Below are positions 10,956 to 20,127 of a DNA stretch of 35,461 nucleotides, one piece after another. The translations under genes were made by a program, and so were the position numbers. This DNA is from Nanobdellota archaeon (lineage in GTDB: Archaea > Nanobdellota > Nanobdellia > Parvarchaeales > Parvarchaeaceae): contig JAJYZA010000009.1 of assembly GCA_021800365.1 (NCBI GenBank), positions 1 through 35,461 on the forward strand, given 5' to 3'. Under the pieces are notes generated by a model, which saw only the letters and a program-made list of their open reading frames with translations, made no database searches and was not told the origin of the DNA. Position 1 is the first letter of the stretch; the number at the start of each line of letters is the position of its first letter.

Positions 10956-11714
10956 GTGGGTCAAAAGACTATGAAAGAAAGGATTAGAAGACTATTGGGG
11001 ATATTATTCGAAAAGCAAAAGGATTCACAGACAGAAACGACTCAGAAACCGTCAATAAAGGGCTATAAATTCGTATCCAAAGACCTTAGAAGCCTTTTAG
11101 GAGACGCGCCGCAATGGACTCCAGGGGTCATGCTCACATATAACGGTGAAGTCGAGCCGGGATATAGAGGTTTCCATGCATCATCTGATTTACGTTCGGC
11201 TTTCGATAATGAGCCGGGCGATCGTTTATTCGAGGTGGAAGCCCGCGGCGTGGTCTACGGCGATGGAGGTCTGTTCGCAGCCAAAGAGATGAAGCTTACA
11301 AACGAGATAGACCTGAAACCTCTGTTGGTGGAATATGCAATCGACTGTGCGAGACACGTGCTTCCGAACTATGAGAAGAAATATCCAGGCGACGCTCGAC
11401 CCAGAAAAGCCATCGAAGCTGCGGAGAAATGGCTGAAAGCGCCTACTGAAGAAAACAGGATTTCTGCTGAGTATGCTGCAGATTTTGCTTGGTATGCCGC
11501 CGTTTCTGCTCTCTATGCCAATCATGATTCTCAGTCTGTCGAGTTTGCTGCTCGGTCTGCTGAGTCTGCCGCCGAATCTGCTTCTTGGTATGTTGATAGG
11601 TCCACTGCTAAATCTGCTGCTTGGTTCGCTGTTTGGTCTGCTGCTGATTCTGCAATGGAAGAAAAATGGCAGACGAATCTGCTCGAAGAGCTGGTAAAGA
11701 AGCATTACTTATAA
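10956..11714 (+). CDS. Accessory/phage-type protein, DUF7666-like N-terminal domain plus Ala/Ser-rich degenerate repeat tail
   Basis: GYKFVSKDLRS...PGYRGFHASSDLRSAF; C-terminal AEYAADFAWYAAVSALYA...SAESAAESASWYVDRSTAKSAAWFAVWSAADSA. Confidence 0.55.
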   Translation: MGQKTMKERIRRLLGILFEKQKDSQTETTQKPSIKGYKFVSKDLRSLLGDAPQWTPGVMLTYNGEVEPGYRGFHASSDLRSAFDNEPGDRLFEVEARGVVYGDGGLFAAKEMKLTNEIDLKPLLVEYAIDCARHVLPNYEKKYPGDARPRKAIEAAEKWLKAPTEENRISAEYAADFAWYAAVSALYANHDSQSVEFAARSAESAAESASWYVDRSTAKSAAWFAVWSAADSAMEEKWQTNLLEELVKKHYL

Positions 11715-12019: not shown

Positions 12020-12298
12020 GTGACAGCCAATGAGCAGGATATAGATGCGCTATTATCTTTTGTGTACTCAGGTAAAATCCGAGAAGCGCTAGTAGACCGG
12101 CTAGCAAAACTAACACCTAAAGGGGTACCACTATTCAGGCTGAAAAGCAATATGGGGAAGGGATATTCATATTCCGTTTGGAGAGCGGCAAAGGCTTTAG
12201 AAAAAAAAGGGATAATAAAATCCGTCAAAGCGCCTGGTTCAAAGTCACCGGTTTACTTTATTACAGATTTGGGTTTAAAGGTGTATGGAAGAATGTAA
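12020..12298 (+). CDS. Small winged-helix DNA-binding protein, putative transcriptional regulator
   Basis: 92 aa, GTG start; PLFRLKSNMGKGYSYSVWRAAKALEKKGIIKSVKAPGSKSPVYFITDLGLKVY is wHTH-like. Confidence 0.6.
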   Translation: MTANEQDIDALLSFVYSGKIREALVDRLAKLTPKGVPLFRLKSNMGKGYSYSVWRAAKALEKKGIIKSVKAPGSKSPVYFITDLGLKVYGRM

Positions 12299-12299
12299 G

Positions 12300-12716
12300 T
12301 TAGGTGCATAAATTCGTATATTCCGATTTTATCCTTTTCATGCAACCTGCCAGGTTATTATTTATATCATGCTCCCATAGTCTAATTACCATCCAACCGC
12401 CGACTCTCATAAAGTTATTGAACTTATTATCTCTTTTTCTATTATCTCCGATTTTTTTAATCCAATAACGTTTATTCGATTTTGGCATCTTGAAGTGCCT
12501 TGGACATGCATGCCAGAAACAGCCATCTACCATTATAGCGAGTTTTGCTCTTGGAAAGGCTACGTCGATTCTATATGGTCCACTTTTATAATCTTTCTTG
12601 TATCTATACCCAATACGCCAAAGTTCTTTGCGTAGACGAAGCTCTGGGCTTGTATCTTTCCCTTTTATTTTTGACATTATCCTGCTTCTGATCTCCTTAG
12701 AAACGGTATCTGTCAT
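12300..12716 (-). CDS. vsr: Very short patch repair endonuclease (Vsr)
   Basis: SRIMSKIKGKDTSPELRLRKELWRIGYRYKKDY...YRIDVAFPRAKLAIMVDGCFWHACPRH; probable start is the internal Met MTDTVSKEIRSR. Confidence 0.9.
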   Translation of the reverse strand: MTDTVSKEIRSRIMSKIKGKDTSPELRLRKELWRIGYRYKKDYKSGPYRIDVAFPRAKLAIMVDGCFWHACPRHFKMPKSNKRYWIKKIGDNRKRDNKFNNFMRVGGWMVIRLWEHDINNNLAGCMKRIKSEYTNLCT

Positions 12717-12767
12717 ACATAATTCAGGGATCCAAAGGTATAAAAGATCCATCTGACCATATAAATC

Positions 12768-14417
12768 ATGGACCAAAATTTAAAGGTAGCCGATTTCTTT
12801 TGTGGGGCCGGCGGATTTTCAGAGGGATTTAGGCAAGCTGGATTCGATATCGCATTCGCTCTTGATCTATGGGGGCCCGCTATCGAAACCCACCAGCTAA
12901 ACCATCCGATGTGCAAATCGATGCAGATGGATATATTAGAACTCAGTTCGCCCGAAATTATAGATAAAATAATCCCAAATGTAGATATAATAATCGGTTC
13001 CCCTCCCTGCGTTTCTTTTTCATACGCAAATCGTGGGGGTAACGTAGACAAAAGTGAAGGTAAAATGCTGGTGAAGGCATTTCTGCGAATAATCGCATGG
13101 AAGAAAAAGAAAGGGGCATTAAGATATTGGGCTCTTGAAAACGTTCCTGCGCTCCGCGCATACATCAAACAGAGATATACATTTGATGAGCTCGATTTGC
13201 CCGGTGGGAACAAAACTGCGTTGGAAGTCAATGGAGATCTATACGATGCTTCGGAATACGGCGCACCACAAAGGCGAATTAGATTTATATGCGGAGACTT
13301 CCCTAAACCAAAAAAGGCTGAGAGACAAATTACATTGGGTGATGTGATATCCGCTCTGAACACGAAAAAACCCGTAGTATCTGATCCAGTATATGACCTC
13401 AAGATACTGCGAGACCATTTGACTGATCATTATTATGATACTTCTATCCCAAAATTTAGATGGCAAGAAGCAAAGAGATTAAAATTAGACTCTGGGTTTT
13501 ATGGCAGAATGAGTTTTCCGGACGAGTTGAACCGACCCAGTAGAACGGTAATGGCGCTCAAAACCGTTCCATCAAGAGAATCCATAATATTGGAGGTCAG
13601 CAAATCAGGAGAGTATCGTAGTCCAACAATAAGAGAATTTGCTAGCATAATGGGTTTTCCGATAACTTATCTTTTCCAAGCGAATAGCGAGGCAACGAAA
13701 CAAAGATTAATTGGAAACGCTGTACCGCCCCCGCTGTCTTACAGTATTGCGGATTCGATAAGAAAGACCGAAGGCTTAAAATCCACTAAGCTAATAAGTA
13801 CGCCAGTAGATGTCTCAAAGCTTAGATTAAACCTAAATGGAATGGCAATAAAAAAGGGCTCTCCGCATGATAGAAAGCCAATGGCACGATTTGCGAGACA
13901 CATAGACTATTTAAAGTACCGTAGTTTCAGAGTCGAACTAGATAATAAATCATCCAACTTTGCTGAAGATAAGATTATTTGGACCGCAAAATTACATCAT
14001 TCGACTGGCAAAGAGCAAATGAAATATCTAGAGGCACAATCTAAAAGCGTACTTGCTAAATTAAAGGAATCAGGAGATAATAGCCGAATCGCTGCATTTG
14101 TGAAAGATCTCCAAAAAATGCTTGGCGATAAGATACCGTCTGCAAAAGAATTCCAGATCCAGTATTGCAAAATCAAGAAAGAAAAGAACCTTCTTTCTCC
14201 AGAAAATGCCCTGACTGCAATAAGGGCTCTAATAGATGTGCACTTCCCTGACAAGGCATTTAAAGATATAACTATAAGGGTGAATAACAGAAAAAATTCT
14301 GGTTTCCATTTCTTTGGCAAGGAGGTCAGCTATATAGATGTGCCTATACGATTCCTTGCAGGTCTTTACGCATGCCAACGAATCGTTGAATTGACACAAA
14401 AAGAAAAAAGTGCATAA
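12768..14417 (+). CDS. dcm: DNA (cytosine-5) methyltransferase with C-terminal extension
   Basis: ADFFCGAGGFSEGFRQAGF (motif I), GSPPCVSFS (IV), ENVP (VI), QRRIRFICG (VIII), RLIGNAVPPPL (X); about 200 extra C-terminal residues. Confidence 0.9.
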   Translation: MDQNLKVADFFCGAGGFSEGFRQAGFDIAFALDLWGPAIETHQLNHPMCKSMQMDILELSSPEIIDKIIPNVDIIIGSPPCVSFSYANRGGNVDKSEGKMLVKAFLRIIAWKKKKGALRYWALENVPALRAYIKQRYTFDELDLPGGNKTALEVNGDLYDASEYGAPQRRIRFICGDFPKPKKAERQITLGDVISALNTKKPVVSDPVYDLKILRDHLTDHYYDTSIPKFRWQEAKRLKLDSGFYGRMSFPDELNRPSRTVMALKTVPSRESIILEVSKSGEYRSPTIREFASIMGFPITYLFQANSEATKQRLIGNAVPPPLSYSIADSIRKTEGLKSTKLISTPVDVSKLRLNLNGMAIKKGSPHDRKPMARFARHIDYLKYRSFRVELDNKSSNFAEDKIIWTAKLHHSTGKEQMKYLEAQSKSVLAKLKESGDNSRIAAFVKDLQKMLGDKIPSAKEFQIQYCKIKKEKNLLSPENALTAIRALIDVHFPDKAFKDITIRVNNRKNSGFHFFGKEVSYIDVPIRFLAGLYACQRIVELTQKEKSA

Positions 14418-14527
14418 AAAGTTTATAAAAAGTTTATATTAAGTGCAAAAACTATAAATTTTAGCGTTACTTACTTATCTTTAGTCTATAAGTCTTCCCA
14501 GGCTTTGTCTGCGAAGATGGAGGAAAG

Positions 14528-14896
14528 ATGGTATATTACAGATTAACAGAAGAAAACGTTAGATTGCTAATCCCAAAGGGGAAAACGGGAGTTTATAAGT
14601 TGGGGGAGCTCGAAGAATCTAATTTCTTGGTCCATTACGTAGGAAGAAGCGATACCGACTTACAAAGAAGATTACTGAGGCATGCGCTGAACAATCGCAA
14701 CACATTCTTTTCTTTCAATATCACCGGAAGCGCTAAGACGGCATTCTTAAGGGAATGCATGAATTTCCATTCATTCAATGATCTGACGAATGCCATACAC
14801 CCTGCTAGCATTGGGAATATGCATTGTCCAGTCTGCGAAGTTAATGAGCATTTCGAGTCTTTGGCTCGAGGAGGTAAACAACATGGAAAAAAGTAA
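14528..14896 (+). CDS. GIY-YIG nuclease-like protein
   Basis: GVYKLGELEESNFLVHYVGRSDTDLQRRLLRH (GIY..YVG pattern plus Arg) and C-terminal CPVC; GGAGG upstream of ATG. Confidence 0.65.
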   Translation: MVYYRLTEENVRLLIPKGKTGVYKLGELEESNFLVHYVGRSDTDLQRRLLRHALNNRNTFFSFNITGSAKTAFLRECMNFHSFNDLTNAIHPASIGNMHCPVCEVNEHFESLARGGKQHGKK

Positions 14897-16556
14897 TATC
14901 AGTTTCGCTTCCGGCGAAAAATTTATAGAAAGCATGCGCCACCAAGGCCTATCAGATGGTGATGCTATAAAAGAATTGGTAGATAATTCGCTAGATGCGA
15001 AAAGCGAACATATCCATATAAATATAGAGAAGGGCGCGAATGGCATAAACATTTTAGTGCAAGACGATGGTATAGGGATGGATAGAGATTTGCTAGAAAG
15101 GGCGCCCTCTTTCGGAAATTCTGGTATCGATTCTGGGGGAAGAATAGGACGCTTCGGTTTCGGTTTGCCAACAGCCATAACTAGTAAAACCAGGCATGCC
15201 GAACTGTTTTCAAAAACTAAGGATGGGAAGTGGAATTATACATATGTTGATTTAGATGAGATTGCTGCCAGCGCAGATTTAAAATTGCCTCGCGCTTTGC
15301 AGAAATCGCCATCCGAACTTCTTGCGGGCGGAATACAGAAATATGAAACTGGGACGATTGTTATTTTGAAGGATTGCGATAGGATGGATCATGAAAAAGT
15401 GGATACGATTTTAAGGGCCATAAAAGACGATTTAGAGATTACGTACTGTTATTTTATAGCAGATGGAATGGAAATGACCTTAAACGGAGAGAGATTAGAA
15501 CTTAACGATCCACTGATGTTGCTCAAAGACCACAAATATGTTAAGGACCTAAGAGAAGGCTTAAAGAAAGAGGAACTAACAGATACTACCGGCTATGCTG
15601 AACAGATAGGGGAGATAGAAGACATACCGAATGAGAATGGGAGCAAATCCGGTAGGGCTAGAATAAAACTAACGCTCTTGCCCATTAAAGACATAGAGCG
15701 TACCGGTAAGGCTAGAAAATATGGCATCGGCTTGAAAGAAGAGGGATTCTACTTAGTTAGAAATAAAAGAATAATTTCTGGTGCTCAAACTCTCGGGTGT
15801 TTTACTCCCCACCCCATGTTGACATATTTTAGAGGTGAAATAGATTTCGATTCAGACATGGATGAAGATTTTGGCATTCAAGTGAATAAATCGAGATTTA
15901 GATTATCTAAATCGATGCAAGATAAGATTTATAGCAGGGTCAGGGAACTTATAAACACTATAAGGCAGAAACAGTATGATACGATGCACGAACTACATCA
16001 AGATAGAAATGGTGGCGCGGCAGAAGAAATTGCCTTATCAGTGCCGCTTAGAACTCCTAAAGAGATAAAGACTGCAACAGAAGAGGATGTAGAGAAGGCG
16101 ATTGAAGAAGAGAGCAAACAGATTGAGAGCAATAGTATGTTATCCTCTGAGGAAAAAGAAAAACAGATAGAGGATATTAAAAAATCTTTAGAGAACGCAG
16201 AACCATACATAATCGCCACAGAAAATAATAGGCAGGGGCCGATTTTTGTCTGGGAATACCTGGGCAAAAGTACCAAATTGATAATAAATAGGGATCATCC
16301 TTTCTATAAATATGTCTGGTTAGCCTTATCTGATGAAAAATGTCCAACGGATTATAGAAGGACCGTTTTATCGCTGTTCTTATTTACTTTAGTCAAGGGA
16401 GAACAGATACACAGGCAAGAGCTTGAGGATGGGAACGTCATTGGTTATCAAGAATTACAGGCGCTTTGGAGCATGACTTTGAGGAAACTGTTAACCTCCG
16501 ATAAATTTCTTAAGTTTTATGATGAAAAAGGATTGGAGGACGATTATGAAAGTTGA
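14883..16556 (+). CDS. MORC/MutL-like GHKL ATPase (HATPase_c_3 type)
   Basis: AIKELVDNSLDA (N box), VQDDGIGM (G1), GRIGRFGFGLPTA (G2); probable start MEKSNISFASG at 14883 after GAGGAGG, overlapping the upstream ORF. Confidence 0.8.
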   Translation: MEKSNISFASGEKFIESMRHQGLSDGDAIKELVDNSLDAKSEHIHINIEKGANGINILVQDDGIGMDRDLLERAPSFGNSGIDSGGRIGRFGFGLPTAITSKTRHAELFSKTKDGKWNYTYVDLDEIAASADLKLPRALQKSPSELLAGGIQKYETGTIVILKDCDRMDHEKVDTILRAIKDDLEITYCYFIADGMEMTLNGERLELNDPLMLLKDHKYVKDLREGLKKEELTDTTGYAEQIGEIEDIPNENGSKSGRARIKLTLLPIKDIERTGKARKYGIGLKEEGFYLVRNKRIISGAQTLGCFTPHPMLTYFRGEIDFDSDMDEDFGIQVNKSRFRLSKSMQDKIYSRVRELINTIRQKQYDTMHELHQDRNGGAAEEIALSVPLRTPKEIKTATEEDVEKAIEEESKQIESNSMLSSEEKEKQIEDIKKSLENAEPYIIATENNRQGPIFVWEYLGKSTKLIINRDHPFYKYVWLALSDEKCPTDYRRTVLSLFLFTLVKGEQIHRQELEDGNVIGYQELQALWSMTLRKLLTSDKFLKFYDEKGLEDDYES

Positions 16557-16996: not shown

Positions 16997-18166
16997 ATGG
17001 AATGTAGATATTGTAAAAGCGAGAACGTCATTAAGCGAGGAACGATAAAGCTGAAAAATAGCAAAGAGAAGCAAATTTACTTCTGCAAAGACTGCAAGAA
17101 GCGCTTCGTGGCCGAAAAGGAATACGAGCGAGTTTTCCCTATCGAGCATAAAGTGTACGTCAAGTCGGAGCGCAAGACATATCCCCAGGACTGGCCAAAT
17201 TACAACGAGGCGCAGAAGCAGGAGAAGCTGATATTCACCGACCTTCTGAAGGAGCTCTGCAGCTTCATAAAAGACGAAACGCCGCCTTATACCGGCAGAC
17301 CAGCAGTACCGATACGGCAGATGATATTCGCCTGCGTGATAAAATGCTATGAACGAGTCTCTTCCAGAAGAGAATACTCAGAACTCAAGATGGAACAGGA
17401 AAGAGACAAAATCTCGATAGTCCCGCACTTCAACACTGTAATAAAGTACTTCAATGATCCTAAGCTGATACCTATACTTACAGATCTGATAACATTCTCA
17501 GCATTGCCATTGAGAGGAGTGGAAGATACTTTTGCAGTGGATTCGAGCGGGCTTAGTTCTGCTTTATACTCAAGGTGGTTCGATTACAGATTCAACAACG
17601 ATAGGAAGGTCAGGAACTGGCTGAAGATACACGCCATATGCGGCACGAAGACGAACATCATAACAGCTATAAAAGTCACCGCTGGGAAAGCCGCAGATTC
17701 GCCGCAGTTCCCGCAACTTGTCAAGAATACTGCTAAATTCTTCAAGGTAAGTGAAGTGTCAGCGGACAAGGGTTATTCAAGTAGGTACAATTACGAAGCT
17801 GTTGCTGCAGTAGGCGGTGAATGTTATATCCCGTTCAAGAAGAATTCCACTGGAACTAGCCGAGGATCCGTACTCTGGCATAAGATGTACCATTACTTCA
17901 TGCTGAATCATGAGGAATTCGAGGCTTATTATCATAAACGGAGCAATGTCGAGTCGACATTCTCTATGATCAAGAGGAACTTGGGCGGCAGGCTGATGAT
18001 GAAGAAGGAAGTCAGCCAGGTGGTGGAATCGTTGGCTAAGGTGCTCTGCCATAATATCCTGTGCTTAATCCACGAAAGCTTCGAAAGTGGCATTATTTTT
18101 GACTTGGCCTCCTGTGCACATTTATTGGGCTCGGTGAACACAAATTCGACTTTAATTAAAGGATAG
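16997..18166 (+). mobile_element. DDE transposase (IS4/IS5/IS1182-like) with N-terminal zinc ribbon
   Basis: CRYCKSEN...YFCKDCKKRF zinc ribbon; FAVDSSG, SADKGYSS, YHKRSNVESTFSMIKR catalytic blocks. Confidence 0.85.
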
Positions 18167-18822: not shown

Positions 18823-20127
18823 CTATCCTGATTTTAGATCATTTCTCAGGATCTCTTCTACCTTCATCAGAAGCGCAGGCGAGAATGCTATATTAAGTTC
18901 TCTGGTCCTGCCATAGCGCCCGTTGCTCTTTACTCTAGACATTATCAGAGAATTGTAATCCATGTCGGCTATTAGGTCGGATATCCTTCTGAAAGTAAGC
19001 CTTTTCAAGCCATACTTGTCGGATATCTTAATGTATGCATCGTAGACTTCGCCGCTGTACACCTTGCCCATCCTTTTACTTCTTGCCGTGACTATGATCG
19101 AATATAATATGCTCTTGCCCTGCTTCGTCATGGACTTGATCATCTCTTCTGTTATATTCTGTTCTAGGATATCGGTGGCCTTGTCCAAGTCTTCCTCAAG
19201 TACTTTTACTCTTCCCGACTGTTGCGTTGTCTCGCCAGCGACTCTTAGAAGATTAAGCGCCTTTCTTACGTCTCCATGCTCTTGTGCGGCGAGTGCTGCA
19301 CATTTCTTTATTACGCTTTCGTCCAAGGCATCGGTATAAAATGAATCTTTAGTCCTTGTTTGGAGTATATTCTCTATCTCGATTGCATTGTAAGGCTTGA
19401 ACACAAGTTCTACCGGGCTTAATGAACTTTTTACCCGTTGATCCAATGAAGCCTTAAGGTCTGTGTTGTTGGATATGCCGATTATGGAAATCTTAGCGTG
19501 TTTCATCGACTCATTTAATCTAAGGAGGCTATAAAGGACTCCGTCTCCTGCGTTTTGTATCAATTTTTCTATTTCGTCGAGTATAAGTATAAGATATTTA
19601 TCTTCGATATCGACATTGGAGACTAAGCGCTTGTATAGCTGATTCACTGAAAGGCCGCTTACTGGTACTTTAACGCCGAAAACCGTGCAAAGGTTGGATA
19701 TAAGTCTATATTCCGTGTCGTTGTTTTCGAGACGGCAGTTTATATATATCGGCATCACGTTGACGTTCTTATCCAAAGCCAATGAAGCGAGATTCTGAGC
19801 CACATATCGTGTCACCAATGATTTTCCAGTGCCGGAAAAACCATAGATAAGTAGGTTTGATATTCTCTCCAGCAACAGACTCGGCGCCAAGATATTAGAA
19901 ATGACCTCTATTTCAGCGTCTCTGTGAAGTATCTCAGTCGGCACGAAAGACGATGACAGTGCTTCCTTATTTTTAAATATTCTTTTGTTGAGAAGAAACT
20001 GATTGAAAATGTCTTTTGGGTTAATTTTTTTCTTTTCTGTTTCTGAAGACGAAAGCTCACGAGAGATTTTTTGAGAATCATCGAAAAAATCTTTTGGCAT
20101 ATAAAATTTTATAATTATTACTAGCAT
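18823..20127 (-). CDS. cdc6: Orc1/Cdc6 family replication initiator (AAA+ and C-terminal winged helix)
   Basis: LLIYGFSGTGKSLVTRYVA (Walker A), YLILILDEIEKLI (Walker B), GISNNTDLKASLDQRVKSSL (sensor/arginine region). Likely start MPKDFFDDSQK is internal. Confidence 0.9.
   Translation of the reverse strand: MLVIIIKFYMPKDFFDDSQKISRELSSSETEKKKINPKDIFNQFLLNKRIFKNKEALSSSFVPTEILHRDAEIEVISNILAPSLLLERISNLLIYGFSGTGKSLVTRYVAQNLASLALDKNVNVMPIYINCRLENNDTEYRLISNLCTVFGVKVPVSGLSVNQLYKRLVSNVDIEDKYLILILDEIEKLIQNAGDGVLYSLLRLNESMKHAKISIIGISNNTDLKASLDQRVKSSLSPVELVFKPYNAIEIENILQTRTKDSFYTDALDESVIKKCAALAAQEHGDVRKALNLLRVAGETTQQSGRVKVLEEDLDKATDILEQNITEEMIKSMTKQGKSILYSIIVTARSKRMGKVYSGEVYDAYIKISDKYGLKRLTFRRISDLIADMDYNSLIMSRVKSNGRYGRTRELNIAFSPALLMKVEEILRNDLKSG

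Follow-up and report, generated by a model that had tools for sequence, protein, structure and literature searches.

A compact group of genes in a contig of a Nanobdellota archaeon (Parvarchaeaceae; GenBank assembly GCA_021800365.1, contig JAJYZA010000009.1, positions 1 to 35,461; this whole stretch of 35,461 nucleotides is called the window here) raises the question whether a Vsr mismatch endonuclease, a C5-cytosine DNA methyltransferase (Dcm), a 122-aa protein and a MORC-family GHKL ATPase work as one restriction-modification system or whether two unrelated gene pairs have come to lie next to each other. An initial annotation, made from the sequence alone, had described vsr on the minus strand as divergent from dcm on the plus strand, followed by a GIY-YIG-like open reading frame (ORF) and the MORC gene, and all four genes lie where it placed them (Table 1). 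In our best explanation, which we judge evenly balanced between right and wrong, they constitute a MORC-type restriction-modification cassette that lacks a helicase, was acquired horizontally and uses GIY-YIG as a modular effector. The methylase would mark the host's own DNA and thereby protect it from the GIY-YIG nuclease, while Vsr would repair the T:G mismatches that result from deaminated 5-methylcytosines. By analogy to MutL with its partners MutH or Vsr, MORC would load on DNA as an ATP-gated dimeric clamp and license the GIY-YIG nuclease on DNA that lacks the methyl mark, so that the small protein would be the cutting effector and unmarked foreign DNA its target. Comparison of sequences and gene neighbourhoods establishes the identities of the proteins, the overlap of the GIY-YIG and MORC genes, the recurrence of this pair, its occurrence beside two DNA-modification chemistries and the exchange of restriction modules beside related methylases.

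This exchange is the main argument for regarding the pair as the restriction half of one system. Dcm matches Pfam DNA_methylase (5.8e-39) and TIGR00675 (110 bits; cut-off 100.7), contains the motifs FCGAGG, PPC81, ENV124-126, QxRxR and GN, and extends beyond its catalytic domain (residues 1-335) by a C-terminal region of about 200 aa (residues ~340-549; 13785-14414), which as sole query against plasmids gave no match. Vsr exceeds the cut-off of TIGR00632 vsr (126.7 bits, 5e-37; cut-off 97.9), matches Pfam Vsr (74 bits, 6.9e-21) and shows the signature D-G-C-F-W-H-x-C...H; with the complete set of C5-methylase motifs and the adjacency of the genes, the two form a Vsr/Dcm pair. Full-length homologues of the methylase including the C-terminal extension were found in three loci of the same archaeal class (L057, L058, L059; 41-46% in one tblastn comparison, 43-48% in another search). 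The methylase of L058 adjoins a MutH-type nuclease (4e-40), while in L057 (6669-8889) a divergent vsr|dcm arrangement lies beside a PLD/HKD-SF2 helicase, a DndD-like ATPase and a DndE-like small protein. L059 (8458-10227) has the same DndD/DndE-like and PLD/HKD-SF2 helicase genes and only a degenerate vsr-like ORF; the DndE-like proteins of both loci have no Pfam match and were assigned by size, position and published gene order (PMC10853773). A shorter methylase from the same genus (L060) and a more distant one from Haladaptatus (L043) both adjoin MutH-type nucleases, and in every one of these loci the methylase clade is found beside some restriction module. In the window, no helicase gene lies between 11.8 and 20 kb, and no DndD/CxC ATPase, DndE or HKD-helicase was found among the genes examined around the cassette. 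GIY-YIG and MORC look to occupy the slot that other restriction modules hold beside related methylases, and the slot itself looks exchangeable. That the methylase clade always lies beside a restriction module, for which the pair is the window's only candidate, speaks against the rival that an orphan Dcm-Vsr neighbours an independent GIY-YIG–MORC defence module sensing something besides the Dcm mark; we regard this rival as unlikely, but it remains strong. The MutH-type partners of the related methylases had also suggested GATC as the methylation target. No other 4-mer palindrome is as under-represented in the window as GATC, but same-genus genomes without a methylase match show just as strong a depletion of it. 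As this shortage is a trait of the whole genus and does not depend on the methylase, it is no evidence for the target and the candidate was rejected.

The 122-aa ORF had been proposed to be a GIY-YIG protein, and its family bears this out. On its own it reaches 19.3 bits against Pfam PF01541, under the cut-off of 22.6. An outward search found relatives on a Nocardiopsis plasmid and in Actinacidiphila, three Streptomyces and a Zixibacteria metagenome-assembled genome; further members come from one archaeon of the same class, the actinomycete G639, nine representatives of the Zixibacteria phylum and a haloarchaeal plasmid. The window protein has the residues G21-x-Y23, Y37-V-G39, R48, E76 and N88 and ends in the tail HP(91-92)...CP-x-C(100-103). 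In a 7-member alignment G21, Y23, Y37, V38, G39, R48, E76 and N88 are invariant, while among 18 members E76, N88, H81, H91, P92 and C100 are invariant, G39 is kept in 17/18 and R48 in 16/18. Compared with the N-terminal nuclease domains of UvrC by hhalign, the 18-member family reaches 92.4% (E 5e-7) with GxY, YxG, R, E and N in register, against 1.1% for the reversed control; eight members had given only 35%, and it was the addition of ten solo members that raised the value to 92%. Among 5322 ORFs from all loci, the eight best matches after the family itself were all PF01541 loci, and a small YhbQ-like set was not matched. The AlphaFold2 (AF2) model (predicted local distance difference test, pLDDT, 78) has the order b1-b2-a1-b3-a2. 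With this model Foldseek found no significant match in the PDB, the insignificant ones being unrelated, and in a viral library it placed many GIY-YIG proteins near the top, none at E<=0.001; the protein as query had no relatives in viral scans or in a phage collection. The alignments thus establish that the protein belongs to the GIY-YIG nucleases; its own family is consistently marked by the HP...CPxC tail, which may bind metal.

The ATPase was likewise correctly named in the initial annotation. It matches HATPase_c_3 (2.1e-19), carries the N box ELVDNS and both glycine motifs (DDGIGMD, GRFGFG), and its S5 signature GFYLVRNKRII at residues 288-298 fits exactly the MORC-specific pattern GhXhhpXXRhl of Iyer et al. 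(PMC2292703). The GIY-linked ATPases of actinomycetes lack the exact signature and are therefore called MORC-like or paraMORC here. Membership in MZA (as MzaB) was rejected, with 66 bits against an NCBIfam cut-off of 850 and a match in PADLOC that was weak too. None of the other 376 genomes sampled from the phylum has a close MORC, a distribution that speaks for horizontal acquisition. Base composition does not point to recent transfer, as the GC content of the cassette (37-41%) resembles that of the window (41%). Viral scans returned no relatives of the ATPase. MORC relatives were also seen on Vibrio and Photobacterium plasmids (L026, L029, L030) near PAPS-reductase-like genes, followed by a DUF6884 gene in L029 and by dcm in L026, and on plasmids of Roseivivax and Leisingera (L023, L027), in which a MORC-like gene is directly followed by a DruA/DUF4338 gene and a second ATPase gene lies upstream.

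The gene-neighbourhood search that the initial annotation had put forward as a check found the pair overlapping or abutting not only in the window but also on the Nocardiopsis plasmid, in three Streptomyces, in Actinacidiphila and in the actinomycete G639; with at least three further genomic settings, the adjacency is more than chance. Neither of the two outcomes that the initial annotation would have taken as refutation arose, the small ORF being a GIY-YIG nuclease by sequence and the pair occurring elsewhere. The two genes mostly overlap by 4 nt in Nocardiopsis and the four streptomycete loci (8-nt gap in L033); 2 nt separate them in G639. Among 296 sampled actinomycete genomes the GIY-YIG family occurs in two, both with the pair (2/2). 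In the four streptomycete loci (L031-L034, ~7.9-10.1 kb) the pair is convergent to a DndABCDE cluster (DndB 1e-139, DndE 4e-39) with a further DndB-like gene upstream; inspection by eye of the 8 kb of these loci showed no DndFGH. Including the window, 5/7 known pairs adjoin modification genes, which again disfavours independent neighbours. In a tree of 18 MORC rows the window ATPase stands apart from the actinomycete GIY-linked ATPases, and constraining the GIY-linked MORCs to a single clade has a cost of 66 log units (p-AU 0.00014), a value to be read with caution because of the long branch of the window row. As the GIY-linked MORCs fall into more than one clade, nuclease and MORC were joined at least twice, or the nuclease changed its ATPase partner. 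An ORF of ~180 aa precedes the pair in actinomycetes (L033 7405-7941, L041 5522-6073; helix-turn-helix-like matches in L041) and is absent in the window.

Recurrence beside a chemically different DNA-marking system makes the pair look like a portable effector module. We tentatively propose, as a possibility that falls short of even chances, that GIY-YIG and MORC are an undescribed modification-gated module of one nuclease family and at least two MORC clades, which would supply the missing restriction both to a 5-methylcytosine system in an archaeon and to phosphorothioate systems in streptomycetes. If true, a two-gene nuclease–ATPase module of ~2 kb found in both archaea and bacteria would offer a minimal setting for asking how a MORC clamp recognises a DNA mark and licenses nuclease activity, which matters as the action of MORC ATPases is poorly understood, eukaryotes included; it would also be a candidate restriction partner for the streptomycete Dnd loci, many Dnd phosphorothioation loci having no known one. 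The same loci bear on a rival reading in which the GIY-YIG nuclease is a suicide or backup effector that cuts its own chromosome once modification is lost or inhibited. Such a role was proposed for URI nucleases at the borders of Dnd systems, sometimes encoded on the opposite strand (PMC10853773), and the streptomycete pairs are convergent with the dnd genes. The published proposal concerns a standalone nuclease, whereas coupling to an ATPase, as here, points to a regulated enzyme that is loaded on DNA, and the window pair shares its direction with dcm; we consider suicide quite improbable.

Outside the pairs the GIY-YIG family is mostly solo, as in all members from the Zixibacteria phylum and in two archaea (G014 and Salinigranum). 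Solo members were found in 10/134 sampled genomes of the Zixibacteria phylum, several amid housekeeping genes, and within about 6 kb of solo members neither MORC nor Dcm was found. Such members would fit a GIY-YIG relative with a role in housekeeping or repair that lies beside MORC by happenstance. This is the least probable of the readings considered, and very improbable to us, given that the family is repeatedly and tightly paired with MORC in an archaeon and in actinomycetes, that ATPases of two MORC clades are involved and that pairs lie on a plasmid and next to defence genes. Solo GIY-YIG proteins with the HP...CPxC tail are widespread (L147-L155, L136, L040, L035) and often lie amid housekeeping genes. 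That the family is mostly solo and that the neighbours of the methylase clade carry other restriction modules are points beyond the initial annotation.

The arrangement of the genes speaks on both sides. The MORC start lies inside the GIY-YIG gene, as first annotated, giving an overlap of 14 nt; a GGAGG at 14870-14874 within the GIY-YIG gene precedes it by 8 nt, a longer start at 14790 offered by the ORF finder is unnecessary, and translation of MORC is probably coupled to that of the GIY-YIG gene. The Vsr ORF as listed (12300-12776) begins with TTG, and the ATG at 12716 is likelier; as this start is 51 bp from the dcm ATG at 12768, the two genes are divergent without overlap, and the gap between them is a putative shared, leaderless archaeal promoter. 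The TATA-like sequences between dcm and the GIY-YIG gene form another putative promoter, and a Shine-Dalgarno GGAGG (14519-14523) precedes the GIY-YIG ATG. The pair thus comes with TATA-like sequences and a Shine-Dalgarno site of its own, and vsr|dcm is a separate divergent unit that is present in L057 too; both favour independent neighbours, as do the phosphorothioation genes beside the streptomycete pairs.

Several observations weigh against a single four-gene system. The predominance of solo GIY-YIG members is one. The complete four-gene set was seen in the window genome only, a 110-bp spacer with TATA-like sequences parts dcm from the pair, and inspection of ~6 kb around the Nocardiopsis and G639 pairs showed no methylase or Dnd modification gene, which likewise favours independent neighbours. 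Moreover, the structure prediction of MORC is unusable (pLDDT 40) and gives no structural support for the clamp. Of the restriction-like system first proposed, the gene identities hold and the recurring pair adds to it; the unity of the four genes is weakened by their confinement to one genome, by pairs beside Dnd or without modification genes and by the spacer.

Table 1. Features of the cassette and its downstream flank (window coordinates).
Feature	Position	Strand	Description
vsr	12300..12716	-	Vsr mismatch endonuclease, 138 aa; ATG at 12716 (MTDTVSKE...)
vsr/dcm divergent region	12717..12767	.	51 bp; TATAAAA ~26 bp from each start codon
dcm	12768..14417	+	C5-cytosine DNA methyltransferase, 549 aa
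Spacer, dcm to GIY-YIG gene	14418..14527	+	110 bp, AT-rich; TATA-like sequences at 14422, 14433, 14453
GIY-YIG gene	14528..14896	+	GIY-YIG nuclease, 122 aa
MORC gene	14883..16556	+	MORC-family GHKL ATPase, 557 aa
DDE transposase gene	16997-18166		DDE_Tnp_1 6.9e-21; ~440 bp downstream of MORC gene
Orc1/Cdc6 gene	18823-20127		Cdc6_C 1.2e-19

Around the transposase (16997-18166) no clear terminal inverted repeats were found. The Orc1/Cdc6 gene farther downstream supports the assignment of the contig to an archaeon. On the other side of the cassette, a 92-aa ORF convergent with vsr (12020-12298) resembles a small winged-helix regulator, without significant family match, and a 252-aa protein (10956-11714) gives Imm5-like and DUF7666 matches and contains a stretch of low complexity that is rich in Ala and Ser.

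The precedent named in the initial annotation is on record: restriction operons with MORC, Dcm and Vsr were published, a minority of them without helicase (Iyer, Abhiman and Aravind, 2008; PMC2292703). By gene content the window, with MORC linked to a methylase and a nuclease and no helicase, appears to be a MORC-type restriction-modification operon like this minority. It shares with these operons the MORC GHKL ATPase with its S5 motif, the C5-methylase and Vsr, whereas the published nucleases are of RE-fold, HKD, HNH and EcoRII-like types and GIY-YIG, URI and UvrC are unmentioned. The Dcm-Vsr-MORC-HNH-helicase-EcoRII_N operon of Fuscovulum (L028) has Dcm, Vsr and a MORC whose S5 signature is the same (GFYIYREGRLI), but an HNH nuclease and an SF2 helicase instead of GIY-YIG, and all its genes lie on one strand. 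CxC-ABC/DndE-HKD-helicase systems with cytosine methylases (PbeABCD-like; PMC10853773) resemble the neighbours of the L057 and L059 methylases, to which the window methylase is homologous over its full length, and L057 shares the divergent vsr|dcm arrangement; the window has GIY-YIG and MORC in place of the DndD/DndE-like and HKD-helicase genes. The URI/GIY-YIG genes at Dnd borders (Rakesh, Aravind and Krishnan, 2024; PMC10853773) lie antiparallel at the edge of the cluster as in L031-L034, but are standalone there with MORC unmentioned, while here the nuclease is half of a conserved pair that also accompanies a 5-methylcytosine methylase. A published GIY-YIG–MORC pair was not found in the searchable literature, outside of which subscription journals and preprints largely lie. 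Finally, in CMoRE (PMC12923530) and SNIPE (PMC13190303) a GIY-YIG nuclease is likewise the anti-phage effector, but both are single proteins that bring sensing or membrane domains of their own and lack a partner ATPase, whereas in the window the nuclease is encoded together with a MORC ATPase.

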